Below are positions 17,393 through 30,590 of a stretch of DNA of 64,000 nt, in pieces (the first letter of the stretch is position 1; each line of letters opens with the position of its first letter). Origin of the DNA: Exiguobacterium marinum DSM 16307 (lineage in GTDB: Bacteria; Bacillota; Bacilli; Exiguobacteriales; Exiguobacteriaceae); assembly GCF_000620845.1 (NCBI RefSeq), contig NZ_KK211189.1:821662-885661 (forward strand), in the 5' to 3' direction. The notes beneath the pieces were generated by a model. The model saw only the letters and a list, made by a program, of their open reading frames with translations. It did not search any database and had not been told where the DNA came from. A program made the translations under genes and the position numbers.

Positions 17393-18931
17393 ATGTCACG
17401 TCTCTTTGAACGAGCGCAACAATTCGGGAAATCGTTCATGTTGCCGATTGCTGTCTTACCGGCAGCAGGACTATTGTTAGGGATTGGGGGCGCATTGTCT
17501 AACCCAAATACGGTACAAGCATATCCGTTTCTTGACATCGACTGGTTGCAACATCTGTTCACGATTATGGCAGCCGCAGGTTCGATTGTATTTGCGAACT
17601 TGGCTGTATTATTTGCTATCGGTGTCGCTGTTGGACTTGCGAAGTCTGATAAAGGAACGGCCGGTTTGGCGGCAATGCTTGGTTATTTGATTATGAATGC
17701 GACCATCAACGCTATGCTTCAGATTACAGGAGAGTTGATGGAAACGAACTTAGCAAGTGCCGGTCAAGGAATGGCACTTGGAATCCAAACACTCGAAACC
17801 GGTGTGTTTGGCGGGATATTGATTGGGATTGTCACGGCACTCTTGCATAACCGCTATAACAAGCAAGTACTTCCACAGTTTCTCGGCTTCTTCAGCGGAT
17901 CACGCTTTGTGCCGATTATTACATCATTCGTGGCGATTGGTGTTGGGATTGGACTCTATTTCATTTGGCCGACGGTACAGAATGGGATTTTCTCACTAGG
18001 TGGTATCGTTGAGAAAACAGGTTATATTGGAACGTTCATCTATGGGTTCGTCCTAAGGATGCTTGGGCCATTCGGGTTGCACCATATTTTCTACATTCCG
18101 TTTTGGACTACTGGACTCGGGGGCTCAATGGTCATCGACGGTACATTGATTGAAGGAACACAAAAGATTTTCTTCGCACAATTGGCTGATCCAAATACGA
18201 CACAGTTCTATGAGGGGACAGCGCGTTTCATGTCTGGACGATTCATCACGATGATGTTTGGTCTTCTCGGTGCAGCGCTTGCGATGTATCACTGTGCCAA
18301 ACCAGAGCAAAAGAAAGTCGTATTCGGTCTCTTGTTTTCTGCCGCACTCACATCGTTCTTGACGGGAATCACGGAACCGCTCGAATTCGCGTTCTTATTC
18401 GTGGCGCCAGTCCTCTATTTGGTCCATGCCATCTTTGATGGACTTGCCTTTATGATGGCTCACATCTTTGAGATTACAATTGGTCAAACGTTTTCCGGAG
18501 GATTCATCGACTTTATTTTATTCGGGGTTTTACAAGGGAATGACAAGACGAACTGGATGCTCGTACCGGTCATCGGTGCCTTCTGGTTCTTGCTCTACTA
18601 CGTTACGTTCCGCTTCCTAATCACGAAGTTCAACTTCATGACACCAGGACGCTCGGATGAGGTAGCGAAGACGGCAGACATCGCAGCATCAGGTCGTACA
18701 ACAGCCATCATTGCGGCACTAGGTGGCGATGACAATATTGAGACGGTCGATTGCTGCGCGACACGCCTCCGCGTTACCGTTAACGACAATCAACATGTCC
18801 GTGAAGACTTGTTGAAAGAGACAGGCGCGCACGGGGTGGTTCAAAAAGGGAATGGGATTCAGGTAATCTACGGTCCTTCTGTTACAATTATTAAGAATGA
18901 AGTCCAAGAGGCGTTAGGCCGGGGCGAATAA
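17393..18931 (+). CDS. PTS transporter, EIICB of the glucose/N-acetylglucosamine superfamily
   Basis: Imports and phosphorylates a sugar across the membrane using phospho-HPr-derived phosphate through an EIIA supplied elsewhere. IIC occupies about residues 1-400 (LFERAQQFGKSFMLPIAVLPAAGLLLGIGG start, GPFGLHHIFYIPFW, and TGITEPLEF, the sugar-binding GITE motif). IIB is about 430-512, with the phospho-cysteine in VDCCATRLRV (Cys455). No EIIA domain is fused. It is co-directional with an RpiR/SIS regulator and nanE, so N-acetylmannosamine or a related amino sugar is the likely substrate. That is an inference from neighbours. Confidence 0.88.
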   Translation: MSRLFERAQQFGKSFMLPIAVLPAAGLLLGIGGALSNPNTVQAYPFLDIDWLQHLFTIMAAAGSIVFANLAVLFAIGVAVGLAKSDKGTAGLAAMLGYLIMNATINAMLQITGELMETNLASAGQGMALGIQTLETGVFGGILIGIVTALLHNRYNKQVLPQFLGFFSGSRFVPIITSFVAIGVGIGLYFIWPTVQNGIFSLGGIVEKTGYIGTFIYGFVLRMLGPFGLHHIFYIPFWTTGLGGSMVIDGTLIEGTQKIFFAQLADPNTTQFYEGTARFMSGRFITMMFGLLGAALAMYHCAKPEQKKVVFGLLFSAALTSFLTGITEPLEFAFLFVAPVLYLVHAIFDGLAFMMAHIFEITIGQTFSGGFIDFILFGVLQGNDKTNWMLVPVIGAFWFLLYYVTFRFLITKFNFMTPGRSDEVAKTADIAASGRTTAIIAALGGDDNIETVDCCATRLRVTVNDNQHVREDLLKETGAHGVVQKGNGIQVIYGPSVTIIKNEVQEALGRGE

Positions 18932-18954
18932 CAAATGTGTTGGAGGGAAGAACC

Positions 18955-19758
18955 GTGTGGGAGCAAATGAAGCACGTGTATTCAGAAATGACAGACAGTG
19001 AGAAAAAGATTGCGGATTATCTGATGGCAAACATGAATGAGGCAATCGAAATGAACATTACCGATTTAGCAAATGCGATTACGACTTCTCCAGGAACCAT
19101 CACGCGGTTTTGCAAAAAAATCGGAGTGGGAAGTTATAGTTCACTGAAGCTCATGATGCAAAAGACGTTGACGGAAACGAATTTGCCCCAAACAACTTCG
19201 CTCGAACCGATGCAGCGATCATATATTGAATTGATTCAGACAACCGCTCATTTGATTGATCAAGACGAGTTGCTCGCTATTTGTAAGGAAATTACTTCGA
19301 GCCGTTCCATCCATTTGTATGGATTGGGCAACGCTGGACTGGTTGCTCAAGAGATGGAATACAGGTTGAGACGGATGGGACTGTTGGCAACTACGGCTTT
19401 TGATAGTCATAGCATGGTCATGGACGCGTCGATTGTCACTGCAGAAGATTTGGTCATTGCTTTCTCAAACAGTGGAGAAAGTCGAGAAGTCGTCCAAGCC
19501 GTTCAACTCGCAAAAGAATCGGGCTGTACGACAGTCGCGTTCGTCGGATATCAGCATTCGCCACTTGCCGAGCTTGCCGACTATCGTTTGTTGACCGCCG
19601 GTGCGTCAGGAGAGGCATTCTTGATTAATACCCAACTCCCGCTTCTCTTTACGGCAGATGCGGTGACGAAAACATTGATGGAGACGAATGAAGCATTAAA
19701 AGCGCACTATATGCGAACGCTTAAAGCGCTTGATCGTTTAAAAGAAAGAAGTGAATAA
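18955..19758 (+). CDS. RpiR/MurR-family transcriptional regulator with SIS domain
   Basis: The 267-residue regulator has an N-terminal helix-turn-helix (about 1-75: [46 protein letters not shown]). A SIS sugar-phosphate-binding domain follows (about 105-240: [50 protein letters not shown]). Such proteins sense a phosphosugar and control the adjacent catabolic operon. GTG 18955 lies about 8 bases after GGAGGG. The GTG at 18937 precedes that site and is rejected. Its ligand is probably ManNAc-6-P or GlcNAc-6-P, inferred from nanE six bases downstream. Confidence 0.88.
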
Positions 19759-19763
19759 TCAGT

Positions 19764-20456
19764 ATGACAACATTACCGACTGGATTGATTGTTTCGTGCC
19801 AGGCTTTAGAAGATGAACCGCTCCATAGTGAGTTCATTATGGGACGGATGGCCATCGCGGCCGTTCAAGGTGGCGCCAAAGGAATTCGGGCCAATTCAGC
19901 GAAAGATATTCAAGAAATTAAAAAACAGGTCGCTGTTCCGATTATCGGCATCGTCAAACGTGACTATGAAGACAGTGACGTTTTTATCACGGCAACGATG
20001 AAAGAAGTCGAAGAGTTGATTGAAGTCGGCGTGGACGTAATCGCCCTCGATGCGACACAACGCCTCCGACCGAACGGGGTGACGCTTCAAGAGTTGGTGC
20101 ATGCCATTCGTTCGATTTATCCGAAACAGGCAATCATGGCGGATTGTGCAACACTCAACGATTGTATCGAAGCGGATCGTCTTGGTTTTGACTATATTTC
20201 GACAACGCTACATGGATATACAAAAGAGACAAACGGATCTCTCCTCTACCATGATGATTTCAAGTTTCTAAAAGATGTGTTACACCACGTGTCTCGACCG
20301 GTTATCGCAGAAGGGAATATTTTGACACCTGAGATGGCGAAGCGTTGTATGAATTTAGGAACATATGCTGTCGTCGTAGGTGGAGCGATTACTCGCCCGC
20401 ATCAAATTACCGCACGGTTTGATGAGGCACTCGCTTCCAGTTTGAAGAGTTCATAA
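19764..20456 (+). CDS. nanE: N-acetylmannosamine-6-phosphate 2-epimerase
   Basis: NanE converts ManNAc-6-P into GlcNAc-6-P, which then enters the Nag pathway. The 230-residue TIM-barrel protein has the family motifs [64 protein letters not shown] and a C-terminal [18 protein letters not shown] then [14 protein letters not shown]. It lies immediately after the SIS regulator in the PTS operon. No sialic-acid lyase, NagA or NagB gene is in the window, so a core Nag pathway elsewhere is assumed. Confidence 0.93.
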
Positions 20457-20633: not shown

Positions 20634-20740
20634 TAGCATAATCCGTCACAACACCGTCATAACAAAAACATAAAAAATATGAAGGAGCAACTTAAAAAAA
20701 TATAAAGCGTGCTAATCTTTTTTATAGGGTGGTGAAAAGA

Positions 20741-23275
20741 ATGAAACGAGTCCGTCGTATGCGAGAAACATTTCGGGGGAGATTGTTATTTGATTTTATT
20801 TTACTCATTATTGTCTCAGGTTTCTTTTCTTTAGTTATCTATTTATTCGATACCATACAAGGTGTGAAAGAAGAGTTTGTACAACAGGAAGTGGCCACGA
20901 AACAAATGCAGTCGATTGTGTATGATTACATTGAGCAAAGTAGACAAGTTATTCAAACGACTGCAGACAATGTCGAAACCCTTCGTTCAACAGGTTCATC
21001 TGTAGCTGTTGAACAGGAGATGATTGATCATATTAAAACGCACAATCCACGCTTTGAGAATTTATATATCGCTGATGAGGGCGGACGTACCATCGCTTTT
21101 TCACCGAAAGTAAATGGGGACGGACAGTCTAATATCGGGCTTGATTTTAGTAATCGTTTTTACTTCAAACAACTTCAAATGACGAGAGACACATACGTCT
21201 CTCATGTATTCCAAGGACGTGGAGGTAGCCAAAAACCTTTGATTGTCATTGCAACACCGATATTCTCCGAAGAAGATGATATGTCAGGTTACATATTAGG
21301 TGCCTTAAGTTTAGAAGGGATTGGAGAGACCTTGATTGCCAACAATTTTAATCAAGAACAATTTCCGGTAGTCGTGGATGATCGAGATCAGATTGTGTTT
21401 CATCCAAACACATACCCGTCTAAAGAAGTGAAAACGGTTACGATGAATCCGGATGAGCATGGAGAGCGAATGTGGGGAAATGTTTGGCGAGTTTTTGATG
21501 AAGAAAAACAGCAGTCTCAATTTGTCACATATGAAGTGGTACCTGAGTATGGATGGACGGTTTGGATTGCTCGTCCGGTGGAAAGTGTAGTGGCTTCTGT
21601 TATAAAAACAATTATTCCAAACACATTGTTATTTTTAATGATTGCGACCATTATGTTTATCCTAGGCTCTATACTTTCCCGTAAACTAAATCGTTCGCTT
21701 GCGGATTTTATGAATCAAACCGAACTGCTCGTTGAACACAACGAAACCTCTCACGTCGTTAGGCACTTGCAATCCATTCGTGCCCCGAAAGAGATCATTG
21801 AATTGGCTAAACGTTTTGAACATATGGCCGAACATGTTCGGGAGAGCCAAGAAAATTTACGTCAATTGAATGAGGCATTAGAAGAAAAGGTATCTCGCCG
21901 AACGAAAGAATTAGAACAAAATAACTTAGAGCTAAAGGCGCTCAATCAATTTATGACATCGTTTCGTCATGCGCCGAACATCATTTCACTTGTACAAAGT
22001 ACATTACAAGATATGGCATCTATTTTGCCTTATCCTTTGTTTGTCTCCTTGCCGAATCAAGTCATTTCAAAAGACGCAATCTTATCACAAGAGAGCTTGT
22101 GTGAATTTTTAGATGCACAGCAAAAAGGTTATCGGTTTTATACGAACCATTTATATTTTGGAGGACGTGCAGGTGGCATGTTATTGGTCGGATTAACAGC
22201 CGATCAAACCATCTCTAAGCGAGAAGAGATTTTTTTACACACACTTAGTGATGCTTTTTCCATCCTTCTCGATAATAAAGTGTTGGTCGATGAGACGACA
22301 AAACAGAACGCCTTGTGGAATGCGACATTAAGTAGTATGTCCGAAGGTGTAATCGTGTTAAATGAAAGTGGAGAAATTGAGTATGTGAACCGCTTTATGG
22401 AGCTGAATTTCGAGTTATCTCAATCTGATCAAGTGGAGGATTGGGATACGGTTATGAAGCTCTATGGTGATGAGAAAGACATCTCTAGATTATTTATTGA
22501 CGATCAAATCTTCCACGTACAACCGTTTTCAGTGATTGGCTCATCCGACACTATCGGACAAGGATACATCGTGCGCGACGTCACTCGTGAAGTAGAAATC
22601 GATCAATTAAAGGATAATTTAATTTCACTAGCATCTCATGAATTTAAAACACCGCTCACAAACATTCGTGGAAGCATCGAAACGTTGATGAGGACCGACG
22701 TCTCATGGGATAGCTCGTTCCGAACTGAATTGTTACAAGGGATCCAAGAAGATGCGCAACGAATCCGTCAACTTATTGATGACTGGTTAGACATCACTAA
22801 AATTGAATCTGGAAACTTTCCTGTTGAACTTGAAGCGGTCTTGTTCATCCCTTATGTAAAAGCCATCATAAAAGAGCTGCAAATTGAAGAATATACAACG
22901 TACGAATGGAATGGACCAACCGTAGTCGAAGTCGATTTTAATCGATTTCGGCAAGTACTCGTCAATTTATTGACGAATGCGGTTCGATACAGTGACGGTT
23001 CACCCAAGATTCAGATTCGGACAGAAGAGACAAACGAGTCTTGGCAACTCGTCATTGAAGATCAAGGGATTGGCATTCGTCACGATCATGTAAATCGGAT
23101 TTTTGATCGCTTTTATCAAGTAGAAATGAAATCAACGAGACGAAAAGGCGGGACCGGTCTCGGGTTAGCAATTTGCAAAGGAATCATTGAAGCCCACGGT
23201 GGGAATATTCGAGTCGAGAGTGAGTTAGGTCATGGAACCCGATTCTTTCTAACAATGCCAAAAGAGGAGGACTAA
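20741..23275 (+). CDS. Cache-domain sensor histidine kinase
   Basis: The 844-residue membrane kinase has TM1 (about 15-38) and a large extracellular double-Cache-like sensor (about 40-285: FENLYIADEGGRTIAFSP, SQKPLIVIATPIFSE, VVPEYGWTVWIARPVESV). TM2 (about 290-315) is followed by HAMP, a coiled coil, a GAF/PAS-like stretch, HisKA (LISLASHEFKTPLTNIRGSIE) and HATPase (LLTNAVRYSDGS, IEDQGIGI, GGTGLGLAICKGII). GTG 20729 is in frame, but AGGGTGG is better placed for ATG 20741. Its stop is 3 bases before a response regulator. Being next to the oxamate-type operon suggests that it senses a small carboxylate or ureide outside the cell; Cache domains commonly bind such ligands. Confidence 0.88.
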   Translation: MKRVRRMRETFRGRLLFDFILLIIVSGFFSLVIYLFDTIQGVKEEFVQQEVATKQMQSIVYDYIEQSRQVIQTTADNVETLRSTGSSVAVEQEMIDHIKTHNPRFENLYIADEGGRTIAFSPKVNGDGQSNIGLDFSNRFYFKQLQMTRDTYVSHVFQGRGGSQKPLIVIATPIFSEEDDMSGYILGALSLEGIGETLIANNFNQEQFPVVVDDRDQIVFHPNTYPSKEVKTVTMNPDEHGERMWGNVWRVFDEEKQQSQFVTYEVVPEYGWTVWIARPVESVVASVIKTIIPNTLLFLMIATIMFILGSILSRKLNRSLADFMNQTELLVEHNETSHVVRHLQSIRAPKEIIELAKRFEHMAEHVRESQENLRQLNEALEEKVSRRTKELEQNNLELKALNQFMTSFRHAPNIISLVQSTLQDMASILPYPLFVSLPNQVISKDAILSQESLCEFLDAQQKGYRFYTNHLYFGGRAGGMLLVGLTADQTISKREEIFLHTLSDAFSILLDNKVLVDETTKQNALWNATLSSMSEGVIVLNESGEIEYVNRFMELNFELSQSDQVEDWDTVMKLYGDEKDISRLFIDDQIFHVQPFSVIGSSDTIGQGYIVRDVTREVEIDQLKDNLISLASHEFKTPLTNIRGSIETLMRTDVSWDSSFRTELLQGIQEDAQRIRQLIDDWLDITKIESGNFPVELEAVLFIPYVKAIIKELQIEEYTTYEWNGPTVVEVDFNRFRQVLVNLLTNAVRYSDGSPKIQIRTEETNESWQLVIEDQGIGIRHDHVNRIFDRFYQVEMKSTRRKGGTGLGLAICKGIIEAHGGNIRVESELGHGTRFFLTMPKEED

Positions 23276-23278
23276 GCA

Positions 23279-23962
23279 ATGCCGACAATTGCCATAGTTG
23301 AGGATGAAAAGAAAATCGCACGTTTTGTGGCGGCAAATTTACTTTCGCTTGGTTATGAAGTGAAACAATATATCGACGGTAGTCAGTTTTTAGAGGAAAT
23401 TGAACGGAATCAGTTTGATTTGGTCTTACTCGATATTATGATGCCTCGAATGGACGGATTTGAAGTGCTGCGTCGTCTACGTACCGTGTCGGATATCCCT
23501 GTTATTTTGTTGACAGCTCGAAGTCAATCCAAAGATAAAGTAGATGGATTGAACTTAGGGGCAGATGATTATTTGACCAAACCATTTGCACTTGAAGAAT
23601 TGTTTGCACGAGTCAAAGCGGTGCTTCGGAGATCCGTTGCCGAAGAAGTACTGGAAATGACTGTTCACATTAAAGGTGTTGAGATAGATCGTTTACGAAA
23701 TAGAGTGTTTCACCGAGGGGAGGAAGTCAAGTTGACTCAAAACGAATTCTCCTTATTATCCGAATTGGGCAAGCATCTAGATCAAGTCGTTCAACATCGA
23801 GAGCTCTTGCAATCGGTATGGGGACCTGAATACGGAGAAGAGGTCGAATATTTGAGAGTTACCATTGGTCGAATCCGAAAAAAATTGAAAGCTGCCGGGG
23901 CAACAGAAGCGGCGAATCAACTAAAGACGTATCCTGGTATCGGCTACGCCTTACTCTCATAA
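23279..23962 (+). CDS. OmpR/PhoB-family response regulator
   Basis: The 227-residue protein has a receiver domain (about 1-118: VEDEKKI, phospho-Asp in LVLLDIMMPRMDG, Thr in ILLTARS, Lys in DYLTKPF). A winged-helix DNA-binding domain follows (about 130-227: VKLTQNEFSLLSELGKHLDQVVQHRELLQSVWG, VTIGRIRKKL, GIGYALL). It is translated almost directly after its kinase. The next gene downstream, 120 bases on, has a tandem 11-bp-period repeat on its promoter, the geometry bound by this family, so it likely activates the transporter/carbamoyltransferase operon. Confidence 0.92.
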   Translation: MPTIAIVEDEKKIARFVAANLLSLGYEVKQYIDGSQFLEEIERNQFDLVLLDIMMPRMDGFEVLRRLRTVSDIPVILLTARSQSKDKVDGLNLGADDYLTKPFALEELFARVKAVLRRSVAEEVLEMTVHIKGVEIDRLRNRVFHRGEEVKLTQNEFSLLSELGKHLDQVVQHRELLQSVWGPEYGEEVEYLRVTIGRIRKKLKAAGATEAANQLKTYPGIGYALLS

Positions 23963-23982
23963 GCGCCTTCGGGCGTTTTTTT
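23963..23982 (+). terminator. Short intrinsic terminator after the response regulator
   Basis: A CGCC-TTCG-GGCG hairpin (23964-23975) extended by weak pairs and followed by seven T. It is short but has the classic stable tetraloop. Confidence 0.7.
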
Positions 23983-24012
23983 ATGGAATTGTTACGAAGA
24001 CCCTCATTCTAT

Positions 24013-24049
24013 TTATGCGTTTCTTATGGAGTGAGACGTAAAGTATAAA
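24013..24049 (+). promoter_or_regulatory. Promoter of the MFS-fdrA operon with tandem TTATG operator
   Basis: TTATG at 24013-24017 and again at 24024-24028 repeat with an 11-bp period, overlapping a weak -35 (TTCTTA, 24021-24026). A good -10 TATAAA (24044-24049) lies 17 bases after it. Direct repeats of 11 bp over a poor -35 are typical for activation by OmpR/PhoB-type regulators. Confidence 0.6.
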
Positions 24050-24085
24050 TGTAAGCGATATCAAAAATAGAAAGGAAGTAACCCA

Positions 24086-25327
24086 ATGAGTACATCCCCA
24101 GTTTCCCAACCCGTCTTGGAGCCCAAGCGAGAGCGCATCCCGTATTGGTGGAAAGTCGTCGCCGTCTTTTTCCTAGGTTGGATGTTTATGTATGCGGACC
24201 GGACCATCCTGAATCCGGTCATGCCGAACTTGGCTCAAGAGTTCGGGTTGAATAACGCTCAGCTCGGTTTGATTAACAGTGTCTTTTTCCTCACGTACGC
24301 CATCGCCCAAATCCCTTCTGGTTCACTTGGCGATAAGTTTGGACGGAAACGTATTTTAGTGCCAGGCTTCATTCTTTTCGGATTATTTACCGGAATTACT
24401 GGATTCGCTACAACATTTCTCTTGTTCATGATTGCCCGAGCAATCACAGGACTTGGCGAAGGAACGTATTACGGTCCGCAATATGCCCTGTCATCTGAAG
24501 CCATTCCAAAGCAATTTTTGACTATCGGAACAGCTATTATCAACAGTGGTATGGCACTCGGTATTTCGCTCGGTTACATCTCATCAAGTTATTTGACGCT
24601 CGAACTTGGAATGAGTTGGCGTACGCCGTTTTACTTCATGACAATCCCGACAATTTTAACCGGGGTCTTAATCTGGTTTGTCATCAAAGAAAAACGTCCA
24701 GAGCGTGTAGAGGCAACAGCAGAAAAATCAGATTTCTCTATCATGAGCTTGTTTAAAAATCGAAACTTACTTGCAACGTTCATTATGGTATTTTGTTCAC
24801 TTTACGGCTTCTTCATGATTCTCACGTGGCTACCACAGTACTTGCAAGTCGAACGTGGGTTCCAAGGAAGTGATGTTGGATTTATCTCATCTCTCGTTCC
24901 ATGGGCTTCAATCCCAGGGGCACTGTTGATTGGATACTTGTCAGACAAAATGGGCAAGAAGAAGCCGCTCGTATTTGTGCTCGTTCCTCTATCGATTGCT
25001 TCGATATTCGCCGTCGTATTCGTAGAAAGTACACCGCTTTTGTTTGCGGCGCTTATCTTGTACGGGTTGACTGGAAAGTTAGCACTTGACCCAGTCCTTC
25101 TTTCATTCGTAGCGAATAACGCACCGAAAAAAGTATATGGAACCGTATTTGGTGTCTATAACTTTGTCGGAATGACCTCATCGATTCTTGCACCGTATAT
25201 CACCGGTTACTTGGTTGACCAGTCTGGGTCGATGCAAACAGGCTTTTATCTGGCAGCTGTCCTTCTCGTCATCGGGATGATTGCCATGTTGTTCACAAAA
25301 GAAACCGTCAAACCGACGGAAGCGTAA
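24086..25327 (+). CDS. MFS transporter of the anion:cation symporter type
   Basis: A 413-residue, 12-span major facilitator. It has the ACS-like N-terminus (WWKVVAVFFLGWMFMYADRTILNPVMPNLAQEFGLN), the loop-2/3 signature GSLGDKFGRKRIL, a charged central loop (about 205-225) and a second-half repeat signature SDKMGKKKPL. ACS carriers move organic anions such as sugar acids and small carboxylates. It is the first gene of an operon with fdrA, DUF1116, DUF2877 and carbamate kinase, so oxamate or a related carbamoylated acid is a reasonable substrate. This is inference from context; the family signature alone does not name it. Confidence 0.85.
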   Translation: MSTSPVSQPVLEPKRERIPYWWKVVAVFFLGWMFMYADRTILNPVMPNLAQEFGLNNAQLGLINSVFFLTYAIAQIPSGSLGDKFGRKRILVPGFILFGLFTGITGFATTFLLFMIARAITGLGEGTYYGPQYALSSEAIPKQFLTIGTAIINSGMALGISLGYISSSYLTLELGMSWRTPFYFMTIPTILTGVLIWFVIKEKRPERVEATAEKSDFSIMSLFKNRNLLATFIMVFCSLYGFFMILTWLPQYLQVERGFQGSDVGFISSLVPWASIPGALLIGYLSDKMGKKKPLVFVLVPLSIASIFAVVFVESTPLLFAALILYGLTGKLALDPVLLSFVANNAPKKVYGTVFGVYNFVGMTSSILAPYITGYLVDQSGSMQTGFYLAAVLLVIGMIAMLFTKETVKPTEA

Positions 25328-25339
25328 GGAGAGAACTAT

Positions 25340-27031
25340 ATGTTAACAACAATCATTCAAGAAAACACATATCAAGATTCGGTGACATTAATGGTGTTAT
25401 CCAATCATGTCTCGAGCCTTGAAGGGATCAACAAAGTGTCAATCATGATGGGGACACCAGCGAATCTTGATATTTTTAAAAGCACAGGCTTTTACACAAG
25501 TGAATTAGAAACAGCTACACCACAGGATATGTGCATCGTTGTAGATTCGGAAACAGATCAGACGGAAAGACTATTGGTCGCAATTCACGACTTCTTGAAC
25601 AATCAAACGAAACAAGATTCAGGAGATAAGCAAGAAGCTCGTTCTTGGAAAGGTGCTTTGGAAGAGTTACCAGATGCGAACTTGGCATTATTGTCGATTC
25701 CTGGACAATACGTTGAATACGAGGCAAGAAAGGCGCTCAATCAAGGAATGAATGTTCATATTTTTAGTGACAATGTTCCGGTCCAAGTCGAACGCGAATT
25801 AAAACAATTCGCTGATCAGAATGGATTGTTGGTCATGGGTCCAGACTGTGGAACGGCCTCGCTTGCGGGAGTTCCTTTAGCGTTCACGAACGTCGTTCAA
25901 ACAGGGAGTGTCGGTATTGTGGGCGCTTCTGGAACAGGGATACAAGAAGTGGCGACGTTAATCGATCGTCTCGGTGGTGGTGTCTCGCATGCCATCGGAA
26001 CGGGAGGACGTGATCTGTCTACGGAGATTGGCGGAATTTCGATGAAAGCGGGTATTCGAGCTCTCGAACAGGATGCATCGACAGATACGATTGTCGTGAT
26101 TTCGAAACCACCTGCTAAGGAAGTACGAGAAGAGATTGAACTGCTCCTTCAACAGGTAACAAAACCGGTTGTGGCTTTCTTTGTCGGTGAACATGGTCTC
26201 GCACCAAAACATCACGTCATTTACGCAGATACATCAGAAGAAGCGGCATTACTGGCACTTGGTAAGTCGATGACTGAACGGAAACGAATGGAGCAGGTCT
26301 CAAACGAAGCGACACGGATTGTCGGACTGTTCTCAGGCGGAACGTTAGCTGCGGAAACTGCTGATTTGCTTGCGCTCTCGTTTAGCGTAGAGGCAGACCG
26401 AGAACATCGTGACGGATTCTCATTCGATTATGAAGGAAATGTCGTCATCGATTTAGGAGATGACGTCTATACCCAAGGTAAACCGCATCCAATGATTGAT
26501 CCATCAACGCGCATCGATTTTATTAATCGCTACTGCGATACGGACGATTCGATCGTACTCCTATTAGATAATGTTCTCGGATACGGTTCTCATGAAAATA
26601 TGGCTGGCGCATTGCTTCCAACGTTACAAGCACTACAGACGTCACGACCAAACGTTCATGTCATCGTCAACGTATGTGGTACCGAGCAAGATCCACAACG
26701 TTATAGTGCTCAAAAACAACTTTTTGAATCAGCGGGTATCTTTGTCGCCGAGAGTAATGTCGCAGCTGTTGAGTACGCCCTTCATATGATTGGAAAACCT
26801 GTACCAAAATTCGAGGAGAAAACAATGCCGTCGATTGAACGGAATACACCGCAAGTGGAGTCGTCGGAAGCCATTCAACAGCTGTTACGTGCACCAAAAG
26901 TGATTAACTTAGGACTTCGCTCATTCGCAGACGCAGTAACGAATGAGGGTGGGCAAAGTGTGCAATACAACTGGCAACCGACTGCAGGCGGAAAACCACA
27001 TCTTCAGCGCTTACTCGCGCTCATGTCTTGA
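25340..27031 (+). CDS. fdrA: FdrA-family subunit of putative oxamate carbamoyltransferase
   Basis: The 563-residue protein has a succinyl-CoA-synthetase-like fold. Visible motifs are NVHIFSDNVPVQVERELKQFA, VMGPDCGTASLAGVPLAFTN, GIVGASGTGIQEVATLIDRLGGGVSHAIGTGGRDLSTEIGG, and a second Rossmann-like half (MIDPSTRIDFINRYCDTDDSIVLLLDNVLGYGSH). E. coli FdrA is similar in size, and with YlbE and YlbF (AllFGH) it forms oxamate carbamoyltransferase, which splits oxalurate into oxamate and carbamoyl phosphate. The older acyl-CoA synthetase label reflects fold only. The gene sits 12 bases after the transporter and before the two partner genes. Confidence 0.85.
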   Translation: MLTTIIQENTYQDSVTLMVLSNHVSSLEGINKVSIMMGTPANLDIFKSTGFYTSELETATPQDMCIVVDSETDQTERLLVAIHDFLNNQTKQDSGDKQEARSWKGALEELPDANLALLSIPGQYVEYEARKALNQGMNVHIFSDNVPVQVERELKQFADQNGLLVMGPDCGTASLAGVPLAFTNVVQTGSVGIVGASGTGIQEVATLIDRLGGGVSHAIGTGGRDLSTEIGGISMKAGIRALEQDASTDTIVVISKPPAKEVREEIELLLQQVTKPVVAFFVGEHGLAPKHHVIYADTSEEAALLALGKSMTERKRMEQVSNEATRIVGLFSGGTLAAETADLLALSFSVEADREHRDGFSFDYEGNVVIDLGDDVYTQGKPHPMIDPSTRIDFINRYCDTDDSIVLLLDNVLGYGSHENMAGALLPTLQALQTSRPNVHVIVNVCGTEQDPQRYSAQKQLFESAGIFVAESNVAAVEYALHMIGKPVPKFEEKTMPSIERNTPQVESSEAIQQLLRAPKVINLGLRSFADAVTNEGGQSVQYNWQPTAGGKPHLQRLLALMS

Positions 27032-27043
27032 GGAGGAAAACAA

Positions 27044-28315
27044 ATGAGTATCGGAGCTATGATTCAAGAAGCAAATGAAAAAGTCGTACAAACCATTTTA
27101 AATGGTCAGCCATTTTTGACGGATGTCGTTCCGGCCCACACGGTCATCCCGATTTTAAAAGATAAAGTATTATTACACGCTGGTCCGCCGATTGCTTATC
27201 ACGAGATGACGGGACCGATGAAAGGGGCAGCCATCGGGGCTGTCATATTCGAACAATGGACAGATGATTATGAAGAAGCGGAACAGATGCTTGAACGGGG
27301 AGAAGTGACATTTACACCTTGTCATCATGTCAATGCCGTTGGTCCAATGGGAGGGATCACATCGGGACACATGCCAGTTCTCGTCGTTGAAAACCGTAAC
27401 GGCAGCGCCAAAGCGTATTGCACGATGAATGAAGGAATCGGTAAAGTGATGCGATTTGGTGCAAACGACGATGAGGTCATTTCACGTTTACATTGGATGA
27501 AAGACGTACTCGGTCCAGTTCTTTCAAAAACATTAAAAGAAACAGGTGAAGGTGTCAATCTAAACGTCATCATCTCAAAAGCGATCACGATGGGCGATGA
27601 GTTCCATCAACGAAATATTGCAGCTTCTGTTCTCTTATTGAAAGAATTAGCGCCATATTTAATGCTGGCAGAGATTGAAGATACGGAACGTCGAGATGTT
27701 TTACAGTTCCTTGCGGACACCGACCAATTTTTCTTGAACGTGATGATGGCGACATGTAAAGCCGTACTAGACGAGGCGCGTCAGCATGAGGCAGGCACGA
27801 TTGTGACGGCGATGACGCGAAACGGAAAAGAGTTCGGTATTCGAATCAGTGGGATGGGGGACGAATGGTTTACAGCTCCGGTGAATACACCAGAAGGTTT
27901 ATTCTTTACAGGATATAGCCAAGACGATGCCAACCCAGATATCGGAGACAGTGCGATTACTGAAACATATGGTGTCGGGGGAATGGCGATGGTAGCCGCG
28001 CCCGGTGTCACTCGTTTCTTAGGTCGGGCAGGAGCCAGTGAGGCCCAAGCGATTAGTGAAGAGATGATTGAAATTTGCGATCGGCACAATTCAAACTTAA
28101 GCATTCCATCTTGGGACTTCCAAGGAGCTTGCGTAGGAATCGATATTCGAAAAGTTGTGGAAACTGGAATCACACCAATCATCAATACAGGCATTGCGCA
28201 TAAAAACCCAGGAATCGGACAAGTTGGTGCAGGTACCGTGCGAGCACCGCTCGCTTGCTTCGAAAAGGCGCTTGAAGCATATGCTGAAAAATTAGGGTTG
28301 GTTCAGCACGCATGA
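27044..28315 (+). CDS. DUF1116 protein (YlbE/AllG-like), putative oxamate carbamoyltransferase subunit
   Basis: The 423-residue protein has conserved segments VVPAHTVIPILKDKVLLHAGPPI, MTGPMKGAAIGAVIFE, CHHVNAVGPMGGITSGHMPVLVVEN, MNEGIGKVMRFG, MGDEFHQRNIAASVLLLKEL and HKNPGIGQVGAGTVRAPLACF. These are those of DUF1116, represented in E. coli by YlbE (AllG). It starts 12 bases after fdrA with AGGAGG and shares the overlap ATGA with the next gene, which implies coupled translation of complex subunits. The start used, MSIGAMIQEAN, follows AGGAGG at 7-8 bases. Confidence 0.87.
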   Translation: MSIGAMIQEANEKVVQTILNGQPFLTDVVPAHTVIPILKDKVLLHAGPPIAYHEMTGPMKGAAIGAVIFEQWTDDYEEAEQMLERGEVTFTPCHHVNAVGPMGGITSGHMPVLVVENRNGSAKAYCTMNEGIGKVMRFGANDDEVISRLHWMKDVLGPVLSKTLKETGEGVNLNVIISKAITMGDEFHQRNIAASVLLLKELAPYLMLAEIEDTERRDVLQFLADTDQFFLNVMMATCKAVLDEARQHEAGTIVTAMTRNGKEFGIRISGMGDEWFTAPVNTPEGLFFTGYSQDDANPDIGDSAITETYGVGGMAMVAAPGVTRFLGRAGASEAQAISEEMIEICDRHNSNLSIPSWDFQGACVGIDIRKVVETGITPIINTGIAHKNPGIGQVGAGTVRAPLACFEKALEAYAEKLGLVQHA

Positions 28316-29112
28316 TTCAAATTGGGGCGGTATACAGCTCGTATGCTGCCTCTCTCCTGCATGATGCATTTCATCCTCTTCAAGTCGAAGCCGTCTTTCA
28401 AACGGGCTACAATATCCGAGCAGGCGCAAACCTACTCTATATTGGAACGACAAAGAATGGATACGCGCCATTCGGTATCCATATGAAGACGGTGGATCAA
28501 TTGAAATGGAGAGTAGGCGATTGTTTACTTGTTGGGACGGGAGCGACCATCCATCATATTTCGACTGGTGTGACAGTTTATCCGAACCAAGTGATGAGAA
28601 TGAAAGTAGAGCGAATCAAGCCCGATCCTGTTCAATTCGAAAGAAATATCGAAGAGATGAATCGATTTCTAAAAAAACTTGGACACGATTGGAGTCGAGC
28701 TTATCGAGAAAAAGAACAGCCGTTATATGATTATTTGTCGAACATTGGTCAGGAAAAAGGGAAGCAACTTATCGGTTACGGAAAAGGGTTAACCCCGAGT
28801 GGTGACGATGTGATTGTTGGCTATATGGCAGTATGTGAAGTGTTAGGGCGACCGATGGGATGGCAGGTGGACTATGTATCAAGCGCCAAATATCGAACGA
28901 CCCGAAGTTCAGTCGCATATTATGAAGCAGCACTACGTGGGGAATATACGAACGAACTGAACCGACTAATCACGGCACTTTTAACACGATCACCTTCCGA
29001 CTGGCAGAGTGATTGGGAACGACTGATTGAGTTTGGTAGCTCATCAGGCCAAGATACGGCGTTAGGAATCTATTTAGCTTTGAAATATGAAATGGAGGAC
29101 ATGGTTAGATGA
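28312..29112 (+). CDS. DUF2877 protein (YlbF/AllH-like), putative third carbamoyltransferase subunit
   Basis: The 266-residue protein has the family motif GYGKGLTPSGDDVIVGYMAV (about 152-171) and a C-terminal GSSSGQDTALGIYLAL. These are characteristic of DUF2877, the family of E. coli YlbF (AllH). Start and stop codons both overlap neighbours by 4 bases (ATGA), with DUF1116 upstream and carbamate kinase downstream. This supports fixed stoichiometry with its partners. Its own catalytic contribution is not known from sequence. Confidence 0.85.
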   Translation: MIQIGAVYSSYAASLLHDAFHPLQVEAVFQTGYNIRAGANLLYIGTTKNGYAPFGIHMKTVDQLKWRVGDCLLVGTGATIHHISTGVTVYPNQVMRMKVERIKPDPVQFERNIEEMNRFLKKLGHDWSRAYREKEQPLYDYLSNIGQEKGKQLIGYGKGLTPSGDDVIVGYMAVCEVLGRPMGWQVDYVSSAKYRTTRSSVAYYEAALRGEYTNELNRLITALLTRSPSDWQSDWERLIEFGSSSGQDTALGIYLALKYEMEDMVR

Positions 29113-30071
29113 AAAAACGAATTGTGATTGCCCTTGGCGGGAATGCCATTTTAACAGATGACGGTTCTGCGGCCGCACAACGTAAAGCAATTACTGAAAC
29201 GGTACGTCACATTGCTGATTTAATCGAAGAAGGGCACGAAGTTGTTTTGAGTCATGGCAATGGACCACAAATCGGTGCGATACTGATTCAACAACAAATC
29301 GCGGATTCGGAAAAAACACCGGCGATGGATTTGGGAACATGTGGTGCAATGACTCAAGGAATGATTGGATACTGGTTCCAACAGTTACTGAGAAATGAGT
29401 TATCTCGTCGCGGAATGGAGCGTCAAGTCGTCACGATGATCACTCAATCAGAAGTGGAAGCTTCAGATCAGGCATTTACCCAACCAACCAAACCGATTGG
29501 TCCTTTCTATAATGAAATGGAAGCATCACATATGCGAGCTCGAGGTGAGGTGGTGGTCGAGGATGCAGGAAGAGGATATCGAAAAGTGGTAGCGAGTCCA
29601 AAACCGGTTCAAATCGTGGAAGCACCAGTCATTCAAGATTTACTCCGTGCCGGTCATCTCGTCATTGCCGCTGGAGGTGGTGGAGTTCCTGTCGTTCGAG
29701 AGCAATATACGCTACATGGAGTGGACGCTGTCATCGATAAAGATTTTGCGGCAGCGCAGTTGGCTCAATCAATTCAAGCGACACATCTCATGATTATCAC
29801 GGGTGTCCCTAACGTATGTCTTCACTTCAACCAACCTAACCAGGAAAAGTTAGAAGAAGTGACCACTTCAAAACTTGAACAGTTGATTGAAGAGAATCAT
29901 TTTATGGCAGGGAGTATGTTGCCAAAGGTAGAAGCGGCTCTTCAATTTATTCAAGACGACTCTGAACGTGAAGCGGTTATTACAGATATCTCTTCTTTAA
30001 AAGGAGCGATAGCGGGTACTGCTGGTACAAGAATTCGATATGACTTTACGGCAGCAGGAATCGTTGACTAA
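29109..30071 (+). CDS. arcC: Carbamate kinase
   Basis: Transfers phosphate from carbamoyl phosphate to ADP, giving ATP, CO2 and ammonia. The 320-residue amino-acid-kinase-fold protein has the N-terminal VIALGGNAIL, VLSHGNGPQIG, DLGTCGAMTQGMIGYW, VIAAGGGGVPVV, DAVIDKDFAAAQLA, MLPKVEAALQFI and a C-terminal AGTAGTRI. It closes the operon, so its carbamoyl phosphate should come from the FdrA complex rather than from arginine deiminase (no arcA or argF here). It corresponds in context to E. coli YbcF/AllK. Confidence 0.95.
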   Translation: MKKRIVIALGGNAILTDDGSAAAQRKAITETVRHIADLIEEGHEVVLSHGNGPQIGAILIQQQIADSEKTPAMDLGTCGAMTQGMIGYWFQQLLRNELSRRGMERQVVTMITQSEVEASDQAFTQPTKPIGPFYNEMEASHMRARGEVVVEDAGRGYRKVVASPKPVQIVEAPVIQDLLRAGHLVIAAGGGGVPVVREQYTLHGVDAVIDKDFAAAQLAQSIQATHLMIITGVPNVCLHFNQPNQEKLEEVTTSKLEQLIEENHFMAGSMLPKVEAALQFIQDDSEREAVITDISSLKGAIAGTAGTRIRYDFTAAGIVD

Positions 30072-30110
30072 GGTCATTACAAATCGTCGACCGATTCAAC
30101 ACACACAAAT

Positions 30111-30153
30111 GACGTCCTGTTCTTTATGATGAATAAAGAGCGGGGCGTCTTTT
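30111..30153. terminator. Terminator after carbamate kinase
   Basis: A long stem of 17 pairs including three G-U pairs (30111-30127 with 30133-30149), GATGA loop, then TTTT. It overlaps the end of the minus-strand methyltransferase relic and may have been formed by the deletion that truncated it. Confidence 0.75.
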
Positions 30154-30515
30154 GTGACTAAAAAACGGGTACTGATTAAGAATTCGGTTTGCGTCCCGTA
30201 ACTGCGATCGTACGATAATCAAGCGAGCTCGTCCCATTTGGATGGACGTAGCATTACGTTTCTCGGCAGAAGCGATGAGCGACTTCGAGCGGTTGAAGCC
30301 AATCACGTTCACATCCTCCCGCTTTTGAAGAATCGTCGCCATTGCATCACCAGCCCCACATCCGAGCTCGAGCACGGTGGTGTTTGGATACATCTGTAGC
30401 TGTTCGATTGTCCACTCGACTTCGATGCGGTGTTGGCGCACCATCTTTTCCCCGATATATTTTCGACGGGACCGCGTGGATTTTCGTATTGGCTGTCCAC
30501 CCAGTTTTTGAACAC
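30124..30515 (-). pseudogene. Class I SAM-dependent methyltransferase, frameshifted and truncated
   Basis: The conserved N-terminus is split over two frames. From GTG 30515 the peptide FKNWVDSQYENPRGPV is read, after which the family sequence (KYIGEKMVRQHRIEVEWTIEQL, then the SAM-binding VLELGCGAGDAM) continues in another frame. The switch falls near an A-rich stretch at about 30455-30465. After ASAEKRNATSIQMGRARLI the normal catalytic C-terminal half, with its aromatic segment, is absent and the frame ends in RRPALYSS. Total coding length is roughly 130 residues against the family's usual 190 or more. One indel plus a 3' deletion make a working enzyme unlikely. Confidence 0.75.
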
Positions 30516-30590
30516 TTACGAGAGCATCTGTCACCTCATTTCAAGAGTAGCTCGATTGTAGCATATCGATGAGACAAAGGAGTCAACAAC

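Follow-up and report, generated by a model that had tools for sequence, protein, structure and literature searches.

In Escherichia coli, AllF, AllG and AllH were established in 2024 as the three subunits of oxamate carbamoyltransferase; only then were genes assigned to this activity, and the cloned enzyme was characterised from the allantoin pathway of one organism (PMC11326118). The E. coli allFGHK genes (PMC11326118, PMC9843812) adjoin allECD and allB within that pathway and are controlled by AllS and ArcA (PMC12535856). A homologous gene set with carbamate kinase, yahEFGI of E. coli, belongs to a separate AllG clade together with sets of two other Exiguobacterium species. For comammox Nitrospira and ammonia-oxidizing archaea, allFGHK has been reported without known upstream purine genes, is collocated with biuret genes and is proposed to use external oxalurate; in the sections consulted, that report mentions no dedicated two-component system (PMC12625717). 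Here, a stretch of 64,000 nucleotides from Exiguobacterium marinum DSM 16307 (contig NZ_KK211189.1, positions 821,662 to 885,661; referred to as the window) was analysed. It carries the three subunits and the kinase in the same order as E. coli. Unlike in E. coli, the operon begins with a carrier gene of the major facilitator superfamily (MFS) and is preceded by a dedicated two-component system, and allantoin genes were not found. With reasonable confidence, the locus is interpreted as an inducible module for oxalurate scavenging, which would combine two-component control, import, phosphorolysis and the formation of ATP and ammonia. The enzyme with its kinase (PMC11326118) and allFGHK without upstream purine genes in nitrifiers (PMC12625717) were already known. 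What is new is that a kinase-regulator-carrier-allFGHK unit recurs and has an operator; a search of the accessible literature for reports linking an allFGHK-type operon to a dedicated two-component system found none. Gene content, clade, absence of upstream enzymes, recurrence of the pair and the operator common to relatives were all established by computation.

All seven module genes (window 20729-30071, forward strand) were intact. The dCache sensor histidine kinase starts at 20729 (GTG; 848 aa) or 20741 (ATG) and ends at 23275 (Pfam dCache_1, HisKA, HATPase_c), and the response regulator follows at 23279-23962 (Response_reg and Trans_reg_C); a HisKA/HATPase kinase and a regulator with receiver and winged-helix domains make up an OmpR-family two-component system. 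The second group comprises the MFS carrier of anion/sugar-acid type (24086-25327; MFS_1, E 5e-92), AllF (FdrA; 25340-27031; NCBIfam FdrA subfamily, 667 bits), AllG (DUF1116; 27044-28315; PF06545, E 1e-97), AllH (DUF2877; 28312-29112; PF11392, E 4.6e-23) and carbamate kinase (29109-30071). The last of these passes the arcC equivalog cut-off (399 bits, cut-off 358) and is the final gene of an operon predicted to produce carbamoyl phosphate. The genes for the three oxamate carbamoyltransferase subunits are contiguous. MFS/AllF and AllF/AllG are separated by 12 bases each, and AllG/AllH and AllH/carbamate kinase overlap by 4 bases each. The kinase-regulator genes and the MFS-allFGH-carbamate kinase genes are predicted to form two separate transcription units, because an intrinsic terminator (23961-23985, forward strand; stem 23961-23978 with a T run) lies between them; this stem-loop also occurs in the nearest named relative, Exiguobacterium sp. 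SL-9. A second terminator (30111-30149, forward strand; 17-pair stem, then a T-rich tail) closes the operon. The initial annotation, which had grouped the carrier, FdrA, DUF1116, DUF2877 and carbamate kinase into one operon with 4-base overlaps among the last three genes, was verified on these points. Its module contained all seven genes and was given an end at 30153, which was revised to 30071.

Window AllG was 61% identical to E. coli AllG vs 44% to the paralog YahG, and window AllF 41% identical to E. coli AllF vs 37% to YahF. A tree was built from 104 AllG proteins; in it, the window protein grouped with E. coli AllG and AllD-associated Gram-positive proteins with full support; YahG formed a separate, fully supported group, which included the sets of the two other Exiguobacterium species. 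Since E. coli AllG has a long branch in this tree, the clade argument depends in part on the identity values; Exiguobacterium AllG has a fairly long separate branch (0.66). By its sequence, window AllG is placed in the oxamate carbamoyltransferase clade, apart from YahG, as expected from the earlier assignment of the enzyme set to the AllFGH-AllK type of E. coli. Sequence relatives of AllH were searched in the PDB and none was found. The source genome (2.81 Mb) has one other carbamate kinase gene, within a complete arginine deiminase cluster arcABDC (arcA-arcB-transporter-arcC), and no further copy; the window kinase therefore appears dedicated to the MFS-allFGH operon. The genus Exiguobacterium holds AllG-type and YahG-type sets in different species. 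The YahG-type allFGH-like sets of two other genomes (loci L005 and L007) have their own carbamate kinase and an AllG approximately 47% identical to that of the window; no MFS gene of the window family, no kinase/regulator pair and no operator were found beside them.

For comparison across species, approximately 85,000 species genomes were scanned for AllG relatives, and the resulting 80 loci were compared together with 24 other loci. An orthologous kinase/regulator pair adjoins allFGHK in 26 distinct Bacillales loci of approximately ten genera (27 counting SL-9 twice). The co-occurrence of this kinase pair with fdrA operons, which the initial annotation had proposed as a check, was thereby confirmed. 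The pair and the MFS gene precede allFGHK in Exiguobacterium, Paraliobacillus and Peribacillus; the pair follows allFGHK in Sporosarcina, Ornithinibacillus, Bacillus, Neobacillus, Cytobacillus, Lentibacillus, Virgibacillus and Paenibacillus. Because the architecture recurs in other genera, a chance arrangement is excluded, and the assumption that the association is limited to Exiguobacterium was rejected. The window regulator is about 52-58% identical to regulators beside allFGHK outside Exiguobacterium, and five further loci combine a shorter kinase with a similar regulator. With a profile of the sensor, 399 Bacilli genomes were searched. The two module-bearing Exiguobacterium genomes scored approximately 400 bits. 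The third-best match (164 bits) is interrupted by two stop codons and adjoins MFS and AllG gene fragments, AllH and carbamate kinase, i.e. a decayed copy of the module; the next match (128 bits) is not near such a module.

Other loci had PucR-type clusters with allantoin genes, fused FdrA-AllG modules or YahG-type sets. PucR allantoin clusters of Paenibacillus and Brevibacillus (e.g. L038, L066) resemble the window in FdrA-AllG-AllH-kinase and MFS genes (AllG approximately 70% identical), but also encode AllC, AllE, AllD and a regulator of PucR type, and have neither the two-component system nor the operator. Fused modules of Clostridium, Enterococcus and Trichococcus (e.g. L071, L120) share AllH, carbamate kinase and an approximately 56% identical MFS carrier; in these, FdrA and AllG are one protein, the regulator is usually of PucR type and such a two-component system is missing. 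An alpha/beta hydrolase (Abhydrolase_3) was seen near allFGH in 52 of the 104 loci (e.g. L118, 5591-6460), in all main architectures, and was not found at the window locus. In Paraliobacillus, a gene pair that resembles a transposase pair is present on either side of the module (L134, 1975-3320 and 13179-14476) and may explain its movement.

In sensor-pair loci, the regions upstream of allF and the MFS gene share a 46-base operator, AATGTTTTTGTAATGT-N11-ATTTTATTCG-N2-TGYAATG. It was found with at least 38 bits before allF, the MFS gene or both in all 24 sensor-pair loci outside Exiguobacterium, and 21 of these 24 have two or more sites, before allF and before MFS. Among 72 control loci without the kinase/regulator pair, no site scored above 17.1 bits. 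Because the motif was trained on sensor-pair loci, their high scores are in part built in; this does not apply to the contrast with control loci or to the occurrence of the same operator at two promoters of one genome. In Virgibacillus, the operator also precedes an MFS gene remote from the operon. At the allF or MFS promoters of PucR and fused types, the operator was searched for and not found. The operator common to two promoters across Bacillales supports the proposal that a dedicated Cache kinase and OmpR regulator control the operon. Operator-like sites were also seen before an Nramp-like transporter in Lentibacillus (L187, 7351-8583), a triple-RidA-domain protein in a Bacillus (L188, 9977-11245) and an RraA-like protein in Neobacillus (L098, 15964-16617), and these three genes are possible additional regulon members. 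In Peribacillus simplex, a decayed MFS copy (L056, 6195-6850) separates the operator from the intact MFS gene.

In the window, the candidate site TATGGAATTGTTACGAAGACCCTCATTCTATTTATGCGTTTCTTATG (23982-24028, forward strand) lies about 50-57 bases before the MFS start, at the same position as the strong operator of Paraliobacillus. The MFS promoter is approximately 92% identical between the window and SL-9, compared with 25-51% at fourfold sites in the same operon. Position and conservation suggest that 23982-24028 is a diverged operator of the MFS operon. Upstream of the kinase gene, an inverted operator-like element (20658-20704, reverse strand) scored 17.6 bits, about equal to the best control-locus match; its CATAACAAAAACATAAAAAA part is conserved in SL-9. 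This element gives a weak hint at possible autoregulation.

Absence of allantoin enzymes was tested by family searches with E. coli positive controls. In the source genome and three congeners, Ldh_2 (the AllD family, ureidoglycolate dehydrogenase) had no match, with the E. coli control positive, and the AllC family (allantoate hydrolase) had none above cut-off (best 31 of 204 bits). Allantoinase (AllB) was likewise not detected above cut-off in the four Exiguobacterium genomes; the best match (264 of 358 bits) is PyrC, the dihydroorotase within the pyr operon. The absence of allantoin genes, earlier noted for the window, thus extends genome-wide for AllD, AllC and allantoinase. The description of the module as free-standing applies to Exiguobacterium and a minority of other carriers; it does not apply to most relatives with the pair, which carry AllD and in some cases a full allantoin pathway. 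That sensor-pair modules as a whole class lack allantoin genes was rejected, since many relatives carry AllD or a full allantoin cluster.

AllD was above cut-off in 21 of the 31 module genomes tested. Its gene adjoins allF divergently in Sporosarcina. A complete allantoin cluster neighbours the module or its carrier in Lentibacillus and Virgibacillus. As AllD, carried by most relatives, makes oxalurate, oxalurate is the likely natural substrate of AllFGH here. In seven sensor-pair genomes no AllD was above cut-off, namely in two Exiguobacterium and in Ornithinibacillus bavariensis, Bacillus sp. FJAT-49711, Cytobacillus massiliigabonensis, Paenibacillus faecalis and Paraliobacillus sp. PM-2. 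None of the latter five had allantoinase above cut-off, and two come close. If oxalurate is the substrate, these seven genomes must therefore import it. Within NCBIfam, the MFS carrier comes closest to the D-galactonate transporter subfamily, with 181 bits against a cut-off of 395, and it is proposed to be an oxalurate importer or oxalurate/oxamate exchanger. Virgibacillus sp. LDC-1 and Bacillus chungangensis have both allantoin-type and sensor-controlled sets; within one genome, the two would serve internal and external oxalurate, respectively.

The structure model of the sensor region had a mean predicted local distance difference test (pLDDT) score of 85. Its first Foldseek match was the sensor domain of B. 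subtilis KinD with pyruvate (PDB 4JGP; E 1e-13), with 202 residues aligned at 2.2 Å, Z 20.8 (VIA-align) and approximately 14% identity. A published list includes KinD among the sensors of carboxylic acids (PMC8694187). Sensor R143, invariant in 19 sensors, aligns with the Arg in the KinD ADRSFF motif that is mutated in 4JGQ and 4JGR (taken as R131 by chain numbering, not from its paper). KinD differs from the window kinase in feeding the sporulation phosphorelay and not an OmpR-type partner. Oxamate is a classical pyruvate analogue, and for this reason oxamate or oxalurate would be a sensible ligand of the modelled sensor.

Taken as a mechanism, the membrane kinase would sense an extracellular small carboxylate, most likely oxalurate or oxamate, and phosphorylate its partner regulator. 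The regulator would bind the operator before the MFS gene and switch on MFS-allF-allG-allH-carbamate kinase. Oxalurate would be imported by the MFS carrier, possibly in exchange for oxamate, and converted with phosphate by AllFGH to oxamate and carbamoyl phosphate, from which the dedicated carbamate kinase would form ATP, ammonia and CO2 with ADP. Oxalurate would have to be external because neither AllD nor allantoinase nor allantoate hydrolase exceeds its family cut-off in this genome. For this locus, we infer enzyme activity, transport direction, sensor ligand and activation rather than repression by the regulator. That the kinase senses external oxalurate or oxamate and drives an operon scavenging the leftovers of allantoin use by others is put forward more tentatively, and may well prove incorrect. 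To our knowledge, such a kinase would, if confirmed, be the first sensor for such a late product of purine breakdown.

Several findings weigh against the scavenging module. The window operator is diverged; its position weight matrix score of 8.1 bits is below the best control-locus match and ranks third in the 64-kb scan, and the score alone is not significant. The pattern TTTATKCGNNTNYWATG had one match per genome in both Exiguobacterium genomes and none as reversed control, and was composed with the window site in view. Among 19 Exiguobacterium genomes, only two carry the sensor-pair module. The MFS carrier is below the cut-off of every named transporter family in NCBIfam. Other dCache domains, amino-acid receptors included, tie with KinD on Z (VIA-align), and dCache domains bind many ligands. 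We know of no enzyme of this family outside E. coli that was assayed as cloned protein.

The substrate is the point at which another reading comes closest. The module might act on a different N-carbamoyl acid, as YahEFG-type sets of E. coli and two Exiguobacterium may do, and the barely known substrate range of the family, the lack of AllD in the genome, the long branch of Exiguobacterium AllG and the YahG-type sets of two congeners are in line with this. Window AllG nevertheless groups with AllD-associated AllG proteins at approximately 70% identity, and an adjacent AllD gene is found in relatives that share this two-component system and operator; we regard this reading as rather unlikely. 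The substrate could also enter the pathway earlier, if the carrier imported allantoin, allantoate or ureidoglycolate and unidentified enzymes led on to oxalurate. In some relatives, an MFS gene with the operator does adjoin a complete allantoin cluster, but these relatives have separate allantoin and purine permeases, and the source genome has no AllD-family protein and neither AllB nor AllC above cut-off. Import of an earlier ureide is accordingly the least probable of the alternatives.

Hardly more probable is a two-component system that acts as a general or unrelated regulator and adjoins the operon by accident. The weak window operator would fit such a system, as would the E. coli operon, which is controlled by AllS and ArcA and has no neighbouring pair (PMC12535856). 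Against it, the pair stays beside the operon in 26 loci and in both gene orders, the operator occurs at both promoters as well as before a remote MFS gene, and among the 399 Bacilli genomes no strong sensor match lies outside modules, the best weaker match being in a decayed module. Inducible scavenging of oxalurate is the reading retained.

Two neighbouring features were recorded in the window. A 136-aa methyltransferase piece (30124-30534, reverse strand) matches the start of the domain models only and is probably a gene remnant. A sugar cluster of a phosphotransferase system transporter, an RpiR regulator and NanE (17393-20456) adjoins the module and was not seen beside the SL-9 module.

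These analyses link oxamate carbamoyltransferase to a sensor kinase and a carrier, both orphans until now, and to a defined operator across approximately ten Bacillales genera. The ligand of the sensor, the cargo of the carrier and a trade in oxalurate between microbes thereby become testable questions. If the proposed function is correct, the module would yield ATP and ammonia from an external purine leftover in three steps, outside any allantoin pathway.

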